Positions 4,255-38,261 of a DNA stretch of 64,000 nucleotides are shown here, in pieces. Each line of letters opens with the position of its first letter. The stretch's first letter is position 1. The translations under genes and the position numbers were made by a program. Below the pieces are notes generated by a model. That model saw only the letters and a list, made by a program, of their open reading frames with translations. It ran no database searches and was not told the DNA's origin. Origin of the DNA: Xanthocytophaga agilis (GTDB lineage: Bacteria > Bacteroidota > Bacteroidia > Cytophagales > 172606-1); NCBI RefSeq assembly GCF_030068605.1, contig NZ_JASJOU010000006.1, positions 1-64,000 on the forward strand. Direction: 5' to 3'.

Positions 4255-4425
4255 TTTTGTTGCTGTGTATAACTAATCACAGATTTTATTTTGACCGGAA
4301 CTCCGCTCACTTTGTCTCTTGTGCATATCTCATGGCAAAAAAAATATCTGATCGGAATTCACCGCAAGCAAATAGCTGTAGTAAACTATGCGCAACAAAA
4401 CTTTTGCCATGAATTAAACGCAAAT
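4255..4425 (+). repeat. Dispersed intergenic repeat, copy 1
   Basis: Shares an ordered series of blocks with the minus strand of 32939-33110: TTTATTTTGA, then a CTCACTTT/ATCACTTT block, then GTGCATATCTCATGG/GCGCATAACTCACGG, then an identical 18-mer GATCGGAATTCACCGCAA (4350-4367), AACTATGCG (4384-4392) and TGAATTAAACGCA (4410-4422). Spacing is conserved to within 2 nt over the last 70 nt. No ORF is present in it, so it is not a gene fragment I can recognise. The rest of the 4139-4557 gap shows nothing else. Confidence 0.7.
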
Positions 4426-25973: not shown

Positions 25974-27836
25974 ATGTTTCCTAAATATGATATAATAGTA
26001 GTTGGAGCAGGGCACGCAGGTTGCGAAGCAGCAGCAGCAGCGGCAAATATGGGTTCGAAAGTATTGCTCGTAACAATGAACATGCATACAATTGCACAGA
26101 TGTCATGTAATCCAGCAATGGGAGGAGTGGCTAAAGGACAAATAGTAAGAGAAGTAGATGCATTGGGTGGAATGTCGGGAATTATCACAGACAAAAGCAT
26201 GATACAATTCAGAATGCTTAATCGATCGAAAGGAGCTGCAATGTGGAGCCCAAGAGCACAGAATGATAGAATGCGCTTTGCGGAAGAATGGCGTCTTGCA
26301 TTAGAACAAATACCCAATGTAGATTTTTGGCAAGAAATGGTAAGTGGCCTCCTAGTAAAAAATGGGGTAGTATGTGGAGTAAGAACATCAATGGGGTTAG
26401 AAATAGAATCCAAAGCAGTAGTGTTGACCAATGGAACTTTTCTAAATGGTAAAATACATATTGGAGAGAAAAACTTTGGAGGTGGACGAACTGCCGAAAA
26501 AGCAGCAACAGGAATAACAGAACAATTAATTGAGTTAGGATTCGAAGCAGGAAGAATGAAAACAGGAACACCTCCTCGAGTAGATGGAAGAAGCCTGAAC
26601 TATAAGCTAATGGAAGAGCAGCCAGGAGACGAAAATCCAAGTAAATTTTCCTATACGAATACACAACCTCTGTCAAAACAACGTAGCTGCTGGATGACAT
26701 ATACCAATGAAGAGGTACATGAGATACTTCGAACAGGATTTGATAAGTCACCAATGTTTACAGGGAGAATTAAAGGATTGGGACCTCGCTACTGCCCATC
26801 TGTGGAAGACAAGATAAATAGATTTGCAGATAAAGATCGTCACCAAATCTTTGTAGAACCAGAAGGTTGGAACACAGTGGAAGTATATGTCAATGGCTTT
26901 TCAACTTCACTTCCAGAAGAGGTACAATATAAAGCGCTATTAAAGATTCCAGGATTTGAAAATGTACGAATGTTTCGGCCAGGGTATGCAATAGAATATG
27001 ACTACTTCCCTCCTACTCAACTGGAGTTATCAATGGAGACTAAACTCATTAAGAACCTTTTCTTTGCAGGTCAAATAAATGGAACAACCGGATATGAAGA
27101 AGCTGCCTGCCAGGGGTTGATGGCGGGTATCAATGCACACAATAAAATAAATGACAAAGCTCCATTTATTCTAAAAAGATCAGAAGCCTATATAGGTGTG
27201 CTAATTGATGATCTTGTCAATAAAGGTACAGACGAACCGTACAGAATGTTTACCTCACGGGCAGAATATAGAATTTTATTGAGACAAGACAATGCAGATC
27301 TCCGTTTAACAGAAACAGGCTTTAATCTAGGGCTGGCATCTGAAGAACGTCTGGAAAGAATGAAATACAAAAGATCTGAGTCAGCTAGGCTGTTAAATGA
27401 TCTCAAATTTAAAAAATTTGCGCCAGAAGAAATAAATGGAGCTTTGGAAAACCTTGGAACAGCCATTATTCGAGAAAAGAGCTCTTTATATAATCTGCTG
27501 AAACGACCAGAAATTACAATTGACAGATTAAAGTCACTGGACAAAGATCTCGCAATATATCTTGATCAGTATGACACAGAGATGCAGGAACAAGCAGAGA
27601 TTGCAGTCAAATATGAAAGCTATATTGACAAAGAGCAAAAAGTGGCAGATAAGCTATCAGAGTTAGAGAATTATAAGATAAATGAAAACTTTGACTATGA
27701 TCGTGTACAGGCCATTTCAAAAGAAGGTAGAGAAAAATTAAAAAAGATACGACCAATGACGCTAGGCCAAGCCTCCCGAATCAGTGGAGTCTCTCCCTCA
27801 GATGTATCTATATTAATGGTGTATATGGGCAGATAA
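25974..27836 (+). CDS. mnmG: tRNA uridine-5-carboxymethylaminomethyl modification enzyme MnmG (GidA)
   Basis: MnmG, with MnmE, uses FAD to place (carboxymethyl)aminomethyl groups on U34 of several tRNAs. The 620-residue protein has the N-terminal FAD motif [13 protein letters not shown], then [21 protein letters not shown] split over residues ~44-64, [11 protein letters not shown], and [17 protein letters not shown]. The C-terminal helical domain ends with [16 protein letters not shown]. mnmG is a frequent neighbour of the replication origin, which fits the DnaA-box cluster 8 kb away. mnmE is not in the window. Confidence 0.97.
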
Positions 27837-29231: not shown

Positions 29232-30116
29232 ATGTCTGAAAATTTGAAAGGTTGCCCAGTATGCAACGCATTGGTATTTAAACATTTTATAGCTTGCAAA
29301 GATTATACAGTTAGTAAACAAGAGTTTCAGATTTTAAGGTGTGAAAGTTGTGGTTTTAAGTTCACAAACCCTCGTCCTGCAGCCCATGAAATTGGAGCAT
29401 TTTATCAGTCAGAAGACTATATATCACACAGCAATACAAATAAGGGGTTAATTAATAAGGTCTATCAGCTAGTCAGAAATTATACGCTTAAGAATAAATT
29501 AAAGCTAATAGATAAACTCCATACCAAAGGCACATTATTAGATATAGGATGTGGTACAGGTACATTTTTGCAAACATGTAATTCAGCAGGGTGGCAAGTG
29601 AAAGGAACAGAGCCAGACAGCAATGCACGGACGATTGCGAGCTCAAATAATCAAATAATGATTGAACCAGATTTCTTAACAGCTTATCCGGATGAACAAT
29701 TTGATATTATTACTATGTGGCATGTATTGGAACATGTGCATTTATTAAGCGAGACGTTAGATAAACTACGCAGGAACCTTTCTTCAGATGGCAAACTGAT
29801 AATAGCCGTTCCTAATTCGGACTCATATGATGCTAGCTATTATAACCAATATTGGGCTGCGTATGACGTACCGAGACATTTATATCATTTCTCACCAAAA
29901 ACACTTACGCAATTAATAGAGAAGTTTGGCTTTAAAATTGCGGAAATAAAGCCAATGTATTTTGATGCTTTTTATATTTCCATGTTGAGTACAAAATATA
30001 GAGACGGAAAAATAAACTATATAGAAGCGTTATCTAAGGGATTAAAATCAAATTCCTGGGCAAAAAATAATAATAACAACTACTCCAGTTTGATCTATAT
30101 ATTCGAAAAAGTATAG
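29232..30116 (+). CDS. Class I SAM-dependent methyltransferase with N-terminal zinc ribbon
   Basis: 294 residues. C8, C11, C37 and C40 form an N-terminal zinc ribbon; the Rossmann methyltransferase core follows, with SAM motif LLDIGCGTGTFL (~106-117) and the acidic post-II motif in FDIITMWHVLEHV. Proteins of this layout usually act on sugars or polysaccharide precursors, but the substrate is not known here. It is followed 94 bp later by a lipoprotein gene on the same strand. Confidence 0.88.
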   Translation: MSENLKGCPVCNALVFKHFIACKDYTVSKQEFQILRCESCGFKFTNPRPAAHEIGAFYQSEDYISHSNTNKGLINKVYQLVRNYTLKNKLKLIDKLHTKGTLLDIGCGTGTFLQTCNSAGWQVKGTEPDSNARTIASSNNQIMIEPDFLTAYPDEQFDIITMWHVLEHVHLLSETLDKLRRNLSSDGKLIIAVPNSDSYDASYYNQYWAAYDVPRHLYHFSPKTLTQLIEKFGFKIAEIKPMYFDAFYISMLSTKYRDGKINYIEALSKGLKSNSWAKNNNNNYSSLIYIFEKV

Positions 30117-30210: not shown

Positions 30211-31941
30211 ATGAAAGTGTTAATGCAACTACAAGTGAATACAAACCTACATACAACTTCAGGGGTCCAACCCTCAGCAAGTATAACAGATACAAAAGCA
30301 CAACATTTTTCTATCATCTTTACTTGTTTAATCTTGATTTTCATTCCGTTTCTCTTTACTCAATGTGCATTGCAAGGAGCACCTAGCGGTGGCCCCAAAG
30401 ATACACTTGCACCAAAATTGGTGAAGGTTATACCCGAGGACAAGAGTCGCAATTATAAAGGAAAGGTTGTAGTCTTTACTTTTGATGAATATATCCAGGT
30501 AGAAAATCTTCAGCAGGAACTAATTGTAACACCTAATGTAGGAACGGAATATGAATACAAAGCCAATAAAAATGGTCTTGTTCTGACATTTAATAAACCT
30601 TTTGATAAACCCAACACTACTTATACTATTAATTTACGAAATGCGATCAAAGACGTTACTGAAAAAAATATAGCGAAAGATGCAAAGGTTGTATTTAGTA
30701 CAGGCTCAGGGCTGGATACATTATCGGTAGAAGGAATCATAAGAGACCTGGAAACAGGACAACCAGTAGAAAATGCAGTAGTTTCACTCTATAGGACAGA
30801 TGACACACTGGATATTGTAAAGGATAAACCTTACTATTTCACAAAAACAGATAAGAAAGGTTATTATCGTCTGGAGAATATACACGAGGACAATTATAAA
30901 ATGTATGCATTAAATGAAAAAGACAATAATCAACGCTATAATCAGGAGAAAGAGAAAATAGGTTTCCTTCCAAAAACGTTACAAATAGCTGATAGTAGTA
31001 AAATAAACTTAGATATTAAAGTAAGTGTAGTAGATGAAAACCCTCCTAAAATAAGCAGCAAATCAGCACAAAGTGATCTTTATAAAATAGAAATGAATGA
31101 AGGATTAATTAATGCAGAAATCCGGATGGATGATTCTAGCAAAAAAATAGCCTACATAATAGATGCAAAGGCGCCAAAAACAATCTACCTATATAATACG
31201 ATACAAGTTTATGATAGTCTCTCCATACAAGTGATAGCACAAGACTCTGCCCAAAACATCGCTCAGATACCTGTAAAAATTAAGTTTGATCAATTAGACG
31301 AAAAACAGCTAAAACGTAAAACTAAATTTCCTTTTGAAGTATCAACGCAACCTAGCAACAGTGAGCCAGTTCTGAAGGATTTTCAATATGTTATTGCCTT
31401 TTCTAAGCCTGTTATGAAATATGATCTTTCTAAAATAAAGGTACTTGCAGATACCCTCACTCCTATTCCACTTGATATCACGAAAGATTTTCAATGGAAT
31501 AACTCATATACTCGATTAACTCTGAATAAGAAAATCGAAGTAAAGACAGGCGTACGGTTTGAAGCTCCCAAAGAAACCTTCTTTAGTGTTGAAAATGATA
31601 CTGCAAAAGCAATTAAAACAGATCATAGCATAAAAGATCCTGAGAAATATGGTACCATGAGTGGAATAGTGAATACAAAAGAAAAATACTTTATAGTCCA
31701 GCTTGTAGACAATAGTGGTAAAGTAGTAGCAGAATCAAGAAATCAACGTAATTATATGTTTCGCTACCTTTCAGCCGGAGATTACAATTTAAGAGTAGTA
31801 ATTGATCAGAATAATAATGGTAAATGGGATCCGGCGAGTTTTAAAGATCGTAGAATAGCAGAGGATATAATTTACAAACCTGAGAAAATAAAACTCAAAG
31901 AAAACTGGGAATTGACAGACCAAAATATATCCACGCTTTAG
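30211..31941 (+). CDS. Ig-like domain lipoprotein of the Bacteroidota
   Basis: 576 residues. A hydrophobic segment (IIFTCLILIFIPFLFTQC) ends in a lipobox with C52, followed by the conserved start GAPSGGPKDTLAPKL. A bacterial Ig-like domain (about 65-165) is followed by a carboxypeptidase-regulatory-like beta-sandwich (about 175-245) and more beta-rich sequence. This family is widespread in Bacteroidota outer membranes without known function. The ATG used gives an unusually long 33-residue leader before the hydrophobic core; the true start may be a non-ATG codon nearer it. Confidence 0.85.
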   Translation: MKVLMQLQVNTNLHTTSGVQPSASITDTKAQHFSIIFTCLILIFIPFLFTQCALQGAPSGGPKDTLAPKLVKVIPEDKSRNYKGKVVVFTFDEYIQVENLQQELIVTPNVGTEYEYKANKNGLVLTFNKPFDKPNTTYTINLRNAIKDVTEKNIAKDAKVVFSTGSGLDTLSVEGIIRDLETGQPVENAVVSLYRTDDTLDIVKDKPYYFTKTDKKGYYRLENIHEDNYKMYALNEKDNNQRYNQEKEKIGFLPKTLQIADSSKINLDIKVSVVDENPPKISSKSAQSDLYKIEMNEGLINAEIRMDDSSKKIAYIIDAKAPKTIYLYNTIQVYDSLSIQVIAQDSAQNIAQIPVKIKFDQLDEKQLKRKTKFPFEVSTQPSNSEPVLKDFQYVIAFSKPVMKYDLSKIKVLADTLTPIPLDITKDFQWNNSYTRLTLNKKIEVKTGVRFEAPKETFFSVENDTAKAIKTDHSIKDPEKYGTMSGIVNTKEKYFIVQLVDNSGKVVAESRNQRNYMFRYLSAGDYNLRVVIDQNNNGKWDPASFKDRRIAEDIIYKPEKIKLKENWELTDQNISTL

Positions 31942-31974
31942 TCTTAAATTAACGTCAGTTCTGTTTTAGAAAAA

Positions 31975-32042
31975 AATAAAGGATTGAGAAAGATAGTCTG
32001 CTATTGTCCAGAGGTAAAACATTATCAACTCAATCCTTTATT
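31975..32042 (-). terminator. Inverted repeat, probable minus-strand terminator
   Basis: Perfect 14-bp arms (31975-31988 and 32029-32042) enclose 40 nt. On the minus strand the hairpin is followed by a run of T, on the plus strand it is not. It may therefore end a transcript entering from the right, out of the gene-free region, although it could also serve the lipoprotein gene just upstream. Confidence 0.45.
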
Positions 32043-32938
32043 CAAGCTCAGGTAATCTCAATAGATTAATAGATCTTTAGTGAATCAGGTAATGTTCTGT
32101 CAAAGCGATACTTCCAGCAAATGAAATCCTCCCCGGCCAATACTCAGTCTGGAGCTATTCTGCTCCTGTACTATCCTAGTTATCTTGAATATCTTTAAAC
32201 TACGAGCCTACTTGATATCTAACCATATTCATATAAAGCCATTTTGATCCCTCAAAGAAAGAAGCTTTATCTTTAGCTCTACCATCACACAATAACGCAG
32301 ATAATTCTCACAATAGATCACTAATCTGACTTTATAAACTAAGGAATGTGATTTGTGAGTCAAATCAAAAACAAATCATCCAATACAATCTAACTACCAA
32401 ATCATAGCTGTATTTGAAAAGAAAGTTGTGATTGAAATAGTTAATAGTTTGCTCTCTTCTATCTATGATCTGGAATATACTCTTATTTGAAAGGGATGAA
32501 CTATACTGGTAAATCTAGTATACAACTTATGTATCAATTTTGAAAAAACAATTTATATCTAACTAAACAGATCCTAAACCGCTGGTACGTTTACGAATCT
32601 CTCCTGCCCTTTCTACCAAGTGATCTATTAGCAGTTGTGTTAAGTGACAGTTAATAGGTTGTATCAGGAATATAGAATCAAATGATGAATCTATATTGAA
32701 AACACCCAAGAAGACAGACTCTAAACAGATTAAAGTTCAATGTATGTAAGCGGAAGTAAGAGTCTATGGAAAAGTAGTGAGACTACATACTTTTAACAAA
32801 TTGAAGAAATATTCTATTTCAATTCTGATCATAGACTTTGGGTTAAACTCAATTGATTTTGTAACATACATCATTTAGATTTATAAGGAGGCTTACCTAC
32901 TGAGTAACGTAACCTGAATTCACTGTGAACTTTATTCA

Positions 32939-33110
32939 TGCGTTTAGTTCACCATACACTGATGCCATTCGCATAGTTCTATGCAAGCAACAGTTTTGCG
33001 GTGAATTCCGATCAAAAAATATAATACCGTGAGTTATGCGCAAATGTAAAAGTGATCGGAATTATGTTCAAAATAAAAAGTTCTGTAAATAATAAGCAAC
33101 TTGTGCATGG
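32939..33110 (-). repeat. Dispersed intergenic repeat, copy 2
   Basis: Minus-strand copy of the element at 4255-4425: the identical 18-mer lies at 32996-33013, followed (reading leftward) by AACTATGCG (32970-32978) and TGAACTAAACGCA (32939-32951), with spacing within 2 nt of copy 1. Homology extends upstream through the TTTATTTTGA block. No coding capacity is evident. Confidence 0.7.
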
Positions 33111-35949
33111 ACTATTGAAATTGACTTACTTCTTCTGAAACAATTTTGCATATAGCTAAACACAAATAAGAAATCTGCGTTAAAGAAGATTCATATTTAC
33201 ATTTGGGATAACTTATATATCTGTAGAAAGTGCTTCGATTAATATCAAAGGCTTCAAAACGTAGATATTCGAGGGCTGTTGATAGCGGATCACCAAGTAC
33301 ATATTTTAGGAGGTCTACCGATTGCCTTTAAGAGCATGAGAAGGTAAATAGAATCTAATGTGGCGAAATTAATACTTTGTTTATATAGTACTTGTGTAAT
33401 CCCTCTTTCGCAGCACTACTCCAAAATCTAATATGCCCACAATTTCTAATTACCATTGAACCAGCCAAAGCCTAACCCCATCAAGTTTTGTTTTATAAGA
33501 CTAAAAGGATATGTTGGCTCAACTTAGCAATAAAGCAGGAGATAAACTGAGTATGCCTTCACTTCTTCTAGGCAAATTTAAAAGAGCATTCTACTATAAA
33601 CAACTTAGAGCACTCCATTTATAGCACATTGCCACTATAACCTAACTTCTTTCATTTCCTTTCATATAGTCATTTTAAAGACTGAATATGAATGCATGCT
33701 ATACAGCCCATGGGTCAAGAGTACATTAACATAGTATCAGAGAAATCACCAGGATACAATCTAATATGGTGAAAGGATCTAGCCATATTAAAGGTAAAAA
33801 ACCAGGCAAATAATCCATCTTCTGCCAAGATTCTTTTCAATTAGAAGATAGCTTTTTAGTCTATATAGGTATAAGTCCAGGTAAAAAATAATGGTAAAAA
33901 ACCATGAAAATAAAAATCATTTCTCTTTGAAAATCAGCAACTTATAAGTATTATTGAAGTACGATTTTAGATTTATCCGATAAAAAAACGCTACTTATAA
34001 AGGCTAAAAGATAATATGACAGATTATTATGGTAGTAAAACGATTCATTATGAGACAATAGAATCAACTAACAAAACAACATAGACTAAATACATTTATA
34101 CTCCTCATAAATAATTAAATAAATCTCTCAAAGAGAATACACATTTAATCTACAAAAAGTCAACAAGAATAGTTTTACTATTACCCTACTTCATAAATCA
34201 AGGGAAGCATATGGGATTTATAGCGTTGACGAGAAGATAACTTATAGGACATTAAAGGAAATATTAAAATGATCAATAGGAAATGGTGTATTTTCTTAAA
34301 GGCTTGTTATTGCCTAAATAAAATAAACTGTCAACTAACCAGCGAAGAATAGTTCTTTTCTTTAAAAAAGTATATATGATAAGAAGATGTGTATGTAAAA
34401 TTTAAAACTACTTCATACTTTATAAAGACAACAAAGATAGGCTTTATTGAAGTTCCTATAGAGTTGAATACAACTGTAGTGGCTTGGCCTATTCTTCAGC
34501 CAATAGCTTAGCATCATACTAAAATCTGCTTAATACCTGTCTTTAAAAGTATACGAAGCAGCTTCTATAAAATATCGAGCTGGCAATGTGAGTTTTTGAT
34601 GAATAAGAAACCCATATATATGGGTATAGTATATGGTTAGCAGTACTGTTAGTTATCAGAGTGTCTTTACAAAAACTGTTAATGTTAAACAGTATTTATT
34701 AATGCAACAAAACTATAGAACAAGACTTCGAAAGATTTCAAAGGCCAGTAATGGTTAAAGGATAGATAGTTTCACCTCTAGAAAGATCTCTCCTGGTGGA
34801 AAAAATGAAGTATTCAAACAATTATGTCACTAAGTATCAATCAATACTTGGAGCAGCAAATTTTGAAATCCTTTTACCTAAGATTAAAAAAGAATAGAGA
34901 GCAAATACAACAAAATGATATTGTAAAAAGAAAATAAGACAATCAATACACACCCACTTGCTGTTTTGTTTATGAACAGAGTGACCCATAACGCTTTTTC
35001 AGAGGTTGTGTAAATTTATTTTGAAGAACTGAGTAGCTGTTGTAATGAGCTAAGTATAAAAAATAGTAAGTCAGTCAAAATATAGACGTAGACATCAGTT
35101 GCGGTTAGAAAATGTATGAAGAACCAGCATATGTATTCTCAATTCTTATGGAGACTTCCTGCTATCTGAGTTTACAATGTATAAGATAGTTTAGATAGTA
35201 CCTGAAAGAAAATTATTGCAACCAGAATTATATCATGTTTAGTAGATCAATGAAGTTTAATATTCATCTAGGAGGCGAGCCAAATTTCAGGAGGCAGAAA
35301 AGGTTATATCTGATAAAGAAATTCATTAACATACTGAAGTGGCAAAAAGTAAGTGAACATAATTACTTTTTATTTTTTCCGAAATCAGCGGCCCTCAAAG
35401 TACTGTACTACCACAAGACGAGTATACAAAAGAAAATGCTCAACAACAGAAATATAGTTGAGATGTTTGCTTGAAATTCTTTATCAAAAGTTCCAAGTGG
35501 ACGCTGCTAGTATGTAATAAGATGTGAAGTTGTAAAATGATATTGTCCATAAAATGAAAATGTAAATAAGCCATTTGGCTCAGAAATTTCATTAGGATGG
35601 TTGGTGATATAAGTAGAGACTTCTAATCTTTGTGTGATAAATCATAATTGCAGAAACTAGAGTTTAAAAATTGATGAGGCGAGCTCACTAGAAATTAATT
35701 ACTCATTTCAATAAAGGTTCGCAAAACAAACACTTTATAACAAACGAACAAAACTGACATATTGACATATTTTAGGTAGATCTACTGATCTTACTCCCAA
35801 AGAAAATTTTGTTTCCTTAAAAAGGAACAAGAACGGCTATTCTATTGAATCAAGGCAACTTCCCACAAATTTTGTTTCCCAAATCCAACTTCAAATTCCA
35901 TTGACAAATCACCATTCCAAACTATATAACTAGAGCAATGAGATGGAGT

Positions 35950-36395
35950 GTTCTAATTTAAGGTCTATTTTTTCTTAGGAAAAAAATAAAACAATGTGGA
36001 TAACTCTGTGGATTAGTGGAAAACTCGAGTGGATAAAGACCCTCTTAATGTTTATCTAACGTTTATCCAGCGCGGATAACCCAGAGCCGATTATTCTATC
36101 CCTATACAAAAGTGGATAAACCCATACTTATCCACAATTTACCCCTATACTTATCCACACATGTGAACAACTTCTTATTCACATGTGAAAAATCAGGAAA
36201 ATGTGTATAACTTATGAAAAATACTGAGAATCTTGTGGAAAACTGTGGATAAATATGTGGATAACACCATACTTATCCACAAACTATCGACACTTGCAAA
36301 GGTATTCTATCCGGTTTTCCACTTTTCCACTTATCCACGGACTAATGGTAGTATTAGATTTTATTTAAAAAAAGAATTAATATTATATATAAGAA
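35950..36395. other. Chromosomal replication origin (oriC)
   Basis: Between 35995 and 36339 are six perfect DnaA boxes TTATCCACA: minus orientation at 35995, 36244 and 36256; plus at 36128, 36151 and 36273. TTATACACA occurs at 36202 (minus). One-mismatch boxes are at 36007, 36028, 36111, 36234 and 36331, and weaker ones at 36063 and 36071. An inverted ACATGTGAA/TTCACATGT pair lies at about 36160-36188. AT-rich tracts flank the cluster (35952-35990 and 36355-36395), either of which could be the unwinding element. mnmG is 8 kb away; dnaA is not adjacent. Confidence 0.9.
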
Positions 36396-36446
36396 AGAAA
36401 GGACTTGAACGGTTATATGAAAAGACACACACACACATTTGGAAAA

Positions 36447-38261
36447 ATGAAAAAACAAGTATTGCTGACACTGACATTTGCGGTATTGTCAGTATTGATG
36501 TGCTGGGGCCAGCAACAGGACATCAAGCTCGCGGATGAATATCTTCAACAGAATGACCCTGAAAAGGCAAGGGAGATTTATCGAAAGTTGATAAAAGAAG
36601 AAAAAGTGATTTCTGTTATACAACGAAAGTATGTTCAGACATTACAAAAATTGCAAGCATGGGATGAAGCTGAGAAGTTTTTAAAGAAGCAAGCAAAGTC
36701 AAGTTCAGAACATCCCATTTATAAAGCAGAGTTAGCCGTGATTCAGGATTTGCAAGGAAAAAAAGATGAGGCTCAGAAGAGTGTGAACCGGTTGATAGAC
36801 GATATTAAAAAGAACCCTCAGCAGATCCACCAGATCGCTCAATATTTGCTCGAGAATCAGCATCCCGACTGGACGGAGAAAATGTATCTAGAGGGCCGTA
36901 AAAGCAGCGGGAACCCTAGTGAGTATGCGTTTCAGTTGGCACATCTTTATAAAAATAGTGGAGAGACGGAAAAGATGCTTGATGAGTATGTCAGTATTGC
37001 AGCAGAAGCACATGATAATTTGGTTGTTGTACAAAATGCAATGCAGGATGATCTGGAGAAACCTGAAGATTTTGAAAAGCTTGAAAAGGTATTACTTGCA
37101 AAACTTCAAAAAGAACCTAATCAAATTGTTTATAATGACCTGCTTATTTGGTTTTATATGCAGCAAAAGGACTTTCATCGGGCATTTTTACAAGCAAGGG
37201 CTATTGATCGTAGGATGAAGATGGAAGGACAGCGATTGATGGAAATAGGGCAAATAAGTTTGCAGAACAAAGATTACAAAGCAGCAAGTGAAATATTTGA
37301 ATATTTAGTGAAGGAATATCCGCAAAGCAACAATTATCCTATGGCAAGACGGTATCTTGTAAATGCTAAAGAAGAACTAGTAAAAAATGCATATCCTGTG
37401 AATAAAGATGCAATACGTTCATTAATAGCAGATTATAAGATTTTGTTAAGTGAGTTAGGAAGGAGCCCTAAAACCATAGAAGCAATGAGAAGTACTGCTT
37501 TGTTATATGGATTTTACTTAAACGAAAAAGATACAGCAATAACTCTTCTTCAAGATGCTATTAAAATTGCTCGAGCGGATCAGCGATTTATCGATAAATG
37601 TAAATTAGATTTGGGGGATATTTATTTATTGAAAAGTGAGCCTTGGGAAGCAACACTAATTTATTCACAAGTTGAGAAAGATGAAAAAGATAGTCCTTTG
37701 GGATATGATGCTAAATTACGGAATGCGCGTTTGAATTATTTTAAGGGTGATTTTCAATTAGCTCAGGAACACCTTGATATATTGAAACTGGCAACATCAC
37801 GTGAGATAGCTAATGATGCTATGTCTTTAAGTATTCTCATACAAGATAATATTGGATTAGATAGTACAGGTGAGGCAATGCGTGAATACGCGAATATTGA
37901 ACTGTTATTATTTCAAAATAGAGATGAAGAAAGTTTAGAAAAACTTAATCAGATGATGACTAAATATGCTGGACATAGTCTGGCTGATGAAATTCTCTGG
38001 CAACAAGCTCAAATTTATATGAAAAGAGGTAATAGTGAAGCTGCCGTTGAGAAACTGCAGAAAATTGTGACAGAGTATGGCTATGATATTTTGAGTGATG
38101 ATGCCGATTTTCTAATAGCAAAGCTGAAAGAAGAAAAGCTTGGAAAGAAAGAAGAAGCTATGGAAATGTACAAAAACTTTTTAGTTAAGTATCCTGGAAG
38201 TATATATGTCGTTGAGGCCAGAAAGAGATATCGTAATCTAAGAGGTGATACTCCACAATAA
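36447..38261 (+). CDS. Tetratricopeptide-repeat protein, secreted
   Basis: A 604-residue protein with signal peptide MKKQVLLTLTFAVLSVLMCWG ending at about residue 21, so exported to the periplasm or outer membrane. At least ten TPR-like helix pairs run through the rest (for example AAVEKLQKIVTEYG and AMEMYKNFLVKYPGS at the end). ATG 36447 is chosen because it gives a clean signal peptide; an upstream ATG 36405 would put 14 polar residues before it. The gene begins about 110 bp right of the last DnaA box and is transcribed away from the origin. Confidence 0.88.
   Translation: MKKQVLLTLTFAVLSVLMCWGQQQDIKLADEYLQQNDPEKAREIYRKLIKEEKVISVIQRKYVQTLQKLQAWDEAEKFLKKQAKSSSEHPIYKAELAVIQDLQGKKDEAQKSVNRLIDDIKKNPQQIHQIAQYLLENQHPDWTEKMYLEGRKSSGNPSEYAFQLAHLYKNSGETEKMLDEYVSIAAEAHDNLVVVQNAMQDDLEKPEDFEKLEKVLLAKLQKEPNQIVYNDLLIWFYMQQKDFHRAFLQARAIDRRMKMEGQRLMEIGQISLQNKDYKAASEIFEYLVKEYPQSNNYPMARRYLVNAKEELVKNAYPVNKDAIRSLIADYKILLSELGRSPKTIEAMRSTALLYGFYLNEKDTAITLLQDAIKIARADQRFIDKCKLDLGDIYLLKSEPWEATLIYSQVEKDEKDSPLGYDAKLRNARLNYFKGDFQLAQEHLDILKLATSREIANDAMSLSILIQDNIGLDSTGEAMREYANIELLLFQNRDEESLEKLNQMMTKYAGHSLADEILWQQAQIYMKRGNSEAAVEKLQKIVTEYGYDILSDDADFLIAKLKEEKLGKKEEAMEMYKNFLVKYPGSIYVVEARKRYRNLRGDTPQ

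Follow-up and report, generated by a model that had tools for sequence, protein, structure and literature searches.

A predicted chromosomal replication origin with overlapping tandem DnaA boxes upstream of a TPR-protein gene in Xanthocytophaga agilis

We analysed the 64 kb at the start of contig C6 (hereafter the window) of the X. agilis draft genome, which comprises 9,768,099 bases in 66 contigs, and we are highly confident that the region at 35960-36416 is the replication origin (oriC) of the main chromosome. This prediction is supported by the DnaA boxes and their conservation, by the conserved place of the site, by the GC skew sampled in relatives and by the order of boxes, trio-like triplets and AT-rich DNA. 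The predicted origin is of an ordinary kind, with a layout and a place common to many relatives. Its interest lies in an anchor gene, in overlapping tandem boxes and in origins that have possibly moved in some families.

Composition of the DnaA-box cluster

When we scanned the window for the TTATCCACA box, six exact and seven one-mismatch copies were found within 345 bp (35995-36339; Table 1). An earlier note, made from the letters of this DNA, had claimed six perfect boxes in both orientations, one TTATACACA and at least five one-mismatch boxes in about 345 bp, with AT-rich flanks and at a density beyond chance. Our recount returned the six exact boxes and the TTATACACA box, and six one-mismatch boxes were found besides the latter. 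The flanks reach 93% AT on the right (36361-36400), adjoining the boxes as a predicted unwinding element, and up to 75% on the left (35961-36000). The density also held up: in 200 simulations of 64 kb under an order-3 Markov model, in each of which the best 345-bp segment was scored, the maximum was one exact box and four boxes with up to one mismatch, against the observed 6 and 13.

Table 1. Features of the predicted origin and its surroundings in the window
Feature	Position	Strand	Remarks
16S rRNA gene, 5' end at contig edge	1-105	-	RF00177, 81.1 bits; reads away from the cluster
mnmG (gidA)	25974-27836	+	TIGR00136, 841.7 bits; about 8.2 kb from the cluster
Methyltransferase gene	29232-30116	+	neighbourhood of the predicted origin
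Ig-like/carboxypeptidase-regulatory protein gene	30211-31941	+	left neighbour of the predicted origin in many relatives
Left-border motif AAGGTCTATTTTTTCT	35960-35975	+	first box follows about 20 bp to the right
Exact TTATCCACA boxes	35995(-), 36128(+), 36151(+), 36244(-), 36256(-), 36273(+)
One-mismatch boxes	36007(-), 36028(-), 36111(-), 36175(+), 36202(-), 36234(-), 36331(+)		36202 is TTATACACA
Left group, three reverse boxes	35995-36036	-	35995 exact; 36007 and 36028 one mismatch
Middle group	36111-36183	mixed	36111(-) one mismatch; 36128(+) and 36151(+) exact; 36175(+) one mismatch
Reverse boxes	36202-36264	-	36202 TTATACACA; 36234 one mismatch; 36244 and 36256 exact
Exact forward box	36273-36281	+	best conserved of all boxes
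Tandem co-oriented boxes, 8-bp period (TTTTCCACT, TTTTCCACT, TTATCCACG)	36315-36339	+	proposed loading anchor of the DnaA filament
DnaA-trio-like tract CTA ATG GTA GTA TTA	36342-36356	+	2 bp past the last box
AT-rich DNA unwinding element (predicted)	36357-36416		AT 93% at 36361-36400
TPR-repeat protein gene	36417-38261	+	marker of the predicted origin; probable ATG start 36417; longest frame from TTG 36405

The exact reverse boxes at 36244 and 36256 are spaced 12 bp apart, and the boxes as a whole make internal direct and inverted repeats. The AAGGTCTATTTTTTCT border motif is kept across genera, with AAGGTC in six and GGTC in eight of the nine rows of the alignment described below (by eye). 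The draft genome holds 78 exact copies of TTATCCACA, six of them inside the cluster. The next densest sites contain three (C5:402943-403050) and two (C8:83872-83891), and no site with more than three exact boxes together was found in the draft genome outside the cluster.

The three exact boxes on C5 (L001) lie between SPOR-like and sugar-nucleotidyltransferase-like genes (by eye), and G001, G006 and G007 contain pairs that are spaced alike. At the site on C8 (L004), the two exact boxes are joined by one near box, and a putative ribonucleotide reductase beta gene (by eye) lies about 0.3 kb downstream; the sequence of this box pair is present once in G001. In E. coli, nrd has a DnaA-regulated promoter, and by analogy the boxes on C8 plausibly belong to a promoter of the same kind. 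The window also contains a dispersed repeat, roughly 100 bp long, at 32960-33095 and, on the reverse strand, at 4284-4367. On scoring 40 of 106 candidates, we found at least 52 matches to it in the same genome, itself included; identity is 71-90% in the remaining matches, some of which form adjacent pairs.

Conservation of the site and its gene neighbourhood

Box pairs alone were found in 44 of 98 genomes, many of them at other genes, and we therefore chose the TPR gene, which has a match in 84 of the 98, as the marker across genomes. The loci of relatives were the best 80 of 587 matches to the TPR protein from named organisms, and a cluster was called where at least four boxes with up to one mismatch lay within 1 kb upstream of the TPR gene. 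At this same locus, to which the earlier note had looked for a test of its origin reading, a cluster is present in 50 of these best 80 loci and missing in 30. Among the latter, 23 belong to Pontibacter, Botryobacter, Adhaeribacter or Hymenobacter (hand count), and two (L161 and L202) end short on the upstream side. The exact box was absent in 10 of 30 other TPR loci examined.

Nine genomes were aligned, and identity to the window was scored over seven of them, leaving aside the window's own sequence and G001, which is very close to it. Mean identity was 76% in the box columns and 38% in the linkers. Among single boxes, those at 36273 (98%), 35995 and 36151 (97% each), 36244 (94%) and 36256 (90%) are the most similar, followed by 36128 (81%), 36202 (67%) and 36111 (65%); the boxes at 36175 and 36234 are so poorly conserved (41% and 35%) that they are possibly local to the genus. 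In G078, a member of the same order, the boxes are degenerate and the module GAATCCACAGCCTTAATAATAA is kept, with about 70 bp between it and the TPR gene. Since the locus of G078 also lies near the skew switch, box density and origin function are perhaps partly uncoupled. In L042 (526-1163 and 3663-4048), L192 and several Emticicia loci, clusters flank the TPR gene on both sides, and this arrangement suggests that some relatives may have bipartite origins.

The probable TPR start at 36417 matches an ATG in eight of the nine alignment rows, and the protein shares 95% identity with its counterpart in Xanthocytophaga flavus YF14B1, the nearest named relative among the matches listed. The earlier note was right that mnmG is nearby and that dnaA is not adjacent, the latter being located on another contig (C2:517308). 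On the same strand and no more than 10 kb upstream of the TPR gene, mnmG was found in 47 of the best 80 of 587 loci (hand count); these comprise 44 of the 50 loci with a cluster and 3 of the 30 that lack it, and some loci are too short for this count. The order mnmG, methyltransferase, Ig-like, TPR is seen in 27 of these best 80 loci, 25 of which carry the cluster (hand count).

Between the Ig-like gene and the predicted origin, 4 kb (31942-35950) contain no open reading frame of at least 80 amino acids. X. flavus has a diverged version of this stretch with a better kept block at about 33883-34428 (76%), and in L138, L139 and L140 a gap of only about 0.5 kb separates the Ig-like match from the TPR match. 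In G001, which belongs to the same genus, a 16S gene at a contig edge reads away from the cluster as it does in the window, a direction as expected on a replichore leaving the cluster. The X. flavus contig C61 runs for only 36 kb past the TPR/cluster locus and, like the window, stops at a 16S gene. A 16S search for the orientation of rRNA operons gave matches in one of eight and three of eight genomes, which was too few for use apart from the 16S at the contig edge.

Tandem boxes, triplets and the AT-rich element

The rightmost boxes start at 36315, 36323 and 36331 and jointly read TTTTCCAC; with a period of 8 bp, adjacent 9-mers overlap by one base. CTAATGGTAGTATTA starts two bases past the last tandem box and is followed by the AT tract, and its bottom strand reads 3'-GAT TAC CAT CAT AAT-5'. 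The rule for basal unwinding, as worded in the excerpted text of PMC8287927, requires a box carrying up to two mismatches, a spacer of 0-16 bp and at least three NAN triplets on the opposite strand. In the window, the box TTATCCACG, a spacer of 2 bp and five triplets, the first being 3'-GAT-5', agree with this rule, which is permissive in that about half of shuffled tails pass it. We take the orientation of the box towards the trios to be that of B. subtilis.

In 36 of the 50 cluster-bearing relatives, the last forward box is preceded by a co-oriented one at a distance of 8 bp (32 relatives) or 9 bp (four relatives), whereas none of 312 control boxes of the same quality, taken from the DNA downstream of the TPR gene, has such a neighbour; counts over these relatives are not independent because of common descent. 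The triplet rule is passed in 34 of the 50, against a shuffled mean of 25.6 and maximum of 34, a moderate enrichment, and at least four triplets occur in 22 (shuffled, 11.1; maximum, 20). By itself, the trio tract is a weak discriminator. TAAT is found up to 16 bp past the last box in 30 of the 50 (shuffled mean 14.3, maximum 28), a count that is suggestive only, the pattern having been picked after looking at the sequences. When co-oriented spacings were collected from all boxes with up to one mismatch in these loci, peaks appeared at 8, 12, 21 and 32-33 bp, and those other than 8 bp correspond roughly to helical steps. A strict pattern of the module, searched in whole genomes, matched four of 98, and in three of these four the TPR match follows within 240 bp; the genome of the window was not matched by this pattern, and a control read backwards matched one genome.

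GC skew and other readings of the site

We sampled GC skew in 20-kb stretches of three single-contig genomes: G004, from the same family (39 stretches over 8.98 Mb), and G034 and G078, from the same order (20 stretches each, over 7.03 and 4.43 Mb). A symmetric-origin contrast was calculated with 5000 permutations per position. In G034, the contrast at the locus equals the best one, and no permutation of 5000 reached it. The locus of G078 lies 0.14 Mb off the best position, again with 0 of 5000. In G004, the best symmetric origin is at 3.60 Mb and the locus at 3.67 Mb, and its value was reached by 2 of 5000 permutations. The position of dnaA fits worse than the locus in each genome (3833, 997 and 33 of 5000 in G004, G034 and G078, respectively). 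The skew thus switches at or near the locus in all three genomes sampled, most weakly in G004, where 12% of the grid positions exceed the locus in contrast and the adjoining stretch on its left is wrong-signed (+0.075). These results support the origin reading of the earlier note. Skew at fourfold sites showed no clear pattern in G004, and plain GC skew was therefore used. In 400 kb of the window's own contig, the cumulative minimum is at 2557, and the curve is nearly flat over the first 30 kb and then rises, with only 36 kb available left of the cluster. In G034, taking a single box pair at 0.35 Mb as the origin gave a poorer fit than the locus (40 of 5000).

The cluster directly adjoins the TPR gene on its upstream side, and box pairs also stand at other genes, for example upstream of the putative ribonucleotide reductase beta gene, so the site might be read as a DnaA-regulated TPR promoter or as a titration or reactivation locus like datA and DARS, which serve these roles for DnaA in E. 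coli, with the true origin elsewhere. However, the skew sampled in three single-contig relatives switches at this locus or close by, the AT-rich element and the triplets are present, and elsewhere no more than three exact boxes are found together; we regard such a role as very unlikely. With a large draft genome in 66 contigs, the origin might also be assigned to a secondary replicon, either a chromid or an integrated plasmid. Since mnmG and a 16S gene share the 64-kb window with the cluster, and since G004, G034 and G078 carry the orthologous locus on their sole contig, close to the skew switch or at it, this is highly improbable. A functionless cluster born of chance or of repeats, to which the internal repeats among the boxes might point, can practically be dismissed, as simulated counts never approach the observed ones and the boxes are kept across genera while the linkers diverge.

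Proposed mechanism

Returning to oriC of the main chromosome as the preferred reading, we infer for 35960-36416 that DnaA binds, which way the duplex opens, that helicases load and that replication does start there. DnaA would bind the high-affinity boxes at 35995, 36128-36159, 36244-36264 and 36273 and gather DnaA-ATP there. A DnaA-ATP filament would load from the tandem boxes onto the triplets, strip the bottom strand and melt the 93% AT element, and helicases could then load to give two diverging forks. On this model, the tight box pairing offers a test case for filament loading, and the site may serve as a fragment on which to build vectors that replicate in Xanthocytophaga.

Possibly moved origins in other families

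In G042, a member of family f2, the box cluster is at 2.06 Mb, while the TPR gene, mnmG and dnaA are at 3.22, 3.80 and 0.00 Mb, respectively; in G082 and G027 of the same family, as in G042, box pairs are far from all three genes. In G056, G069 and G094, box pairs, the TPR gene, mnmG and dnaA are on different contigs. The genes beside the box pairs differ between G042 and G069 (by eye). The origin may have moved in family f2 and other relatives.

A broader proposal, which we hold tentatively and at slightly less than an even chance, is that many Cytophagales have a distinct origin variant, in which overlapping boxes with an 8-bp period lead into TAATAATA-type triplets upstream of one TPR gene in several families, and that the origin has moved in f2 and Hymenobacteraceae. 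If this were true, the Cytophagales would provide a natural series on origin relocation and on the seeding of filaments by tight boxes. The site in the window itself gives a marker-gene rule, which places the origin upstream of the TPR gene and a few kb to the right of mnmG, and together with the module this rule can help to find origins in a large group where dnaA is no marker.

Comparison with known origins

The comparisons below extend to the excerpts of the papers cited. The oriC of E. coli is a box array beside an AT-rich unwinding element with gidA/mnmG as a neighbour, and the present site resembles it in all these respects. To our knowledge, E. coli oriC has no tandem 8-bp boxes. In the excerpt of PMC6669920, E. 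coli is treated as diverged from the box-trio plan.

Cytophaga hutchinsonii belongs to the same order, and plasmid tables in the partial sources list its oriC on vectors used in that species. Xu et al. are said to have reported oriC plasmids of C. hutchinsonii in 2012.

The claim of the earlier note that box arrangement in Cytophagales origins is little described was partly right. The arrangement does not appear in the titles and abstract openings of the literature matches listed, a set mostly outside subscription journals. On the other hand, origins in wider Bacteroidetes are in print: they are commonly far from dnaA, with a box cluster at the skew switch (PMC4755523, in excerpt), and two flavobacterial reports predict some next to mnmG (PMC12843772, PMC11278836), although in the excerpt of PMC11278836 the text and a figure legend conflict over which end mnmG marks. 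The Bacteroidetes origins compared here are Ori-Finder/DoriC predictions, which in these excerpts name mnmG alone or no neighbour, whereas the Xanthocytophaga site has the TPR gene immediately to its right.

A close likeness is to the incC/basal unwinding system of B. subtilis oriC, as described in the excerpts of PMC6669920, PMC10721633 and PMC8287927: both have co-oriented boxes, central-A triplets on one strand and a melting region, and the first triplet is 3'-GAT-5' in incC as well. Unlike the B. subtilis origin, the Xanthocytophaga site is not beside dnaA, and its other box groups are in both orientations. Finally, its 9-bp boxes overlap by 1 bp, whereas the published search, as excerpted, takes up to 3 bp between two boxes.
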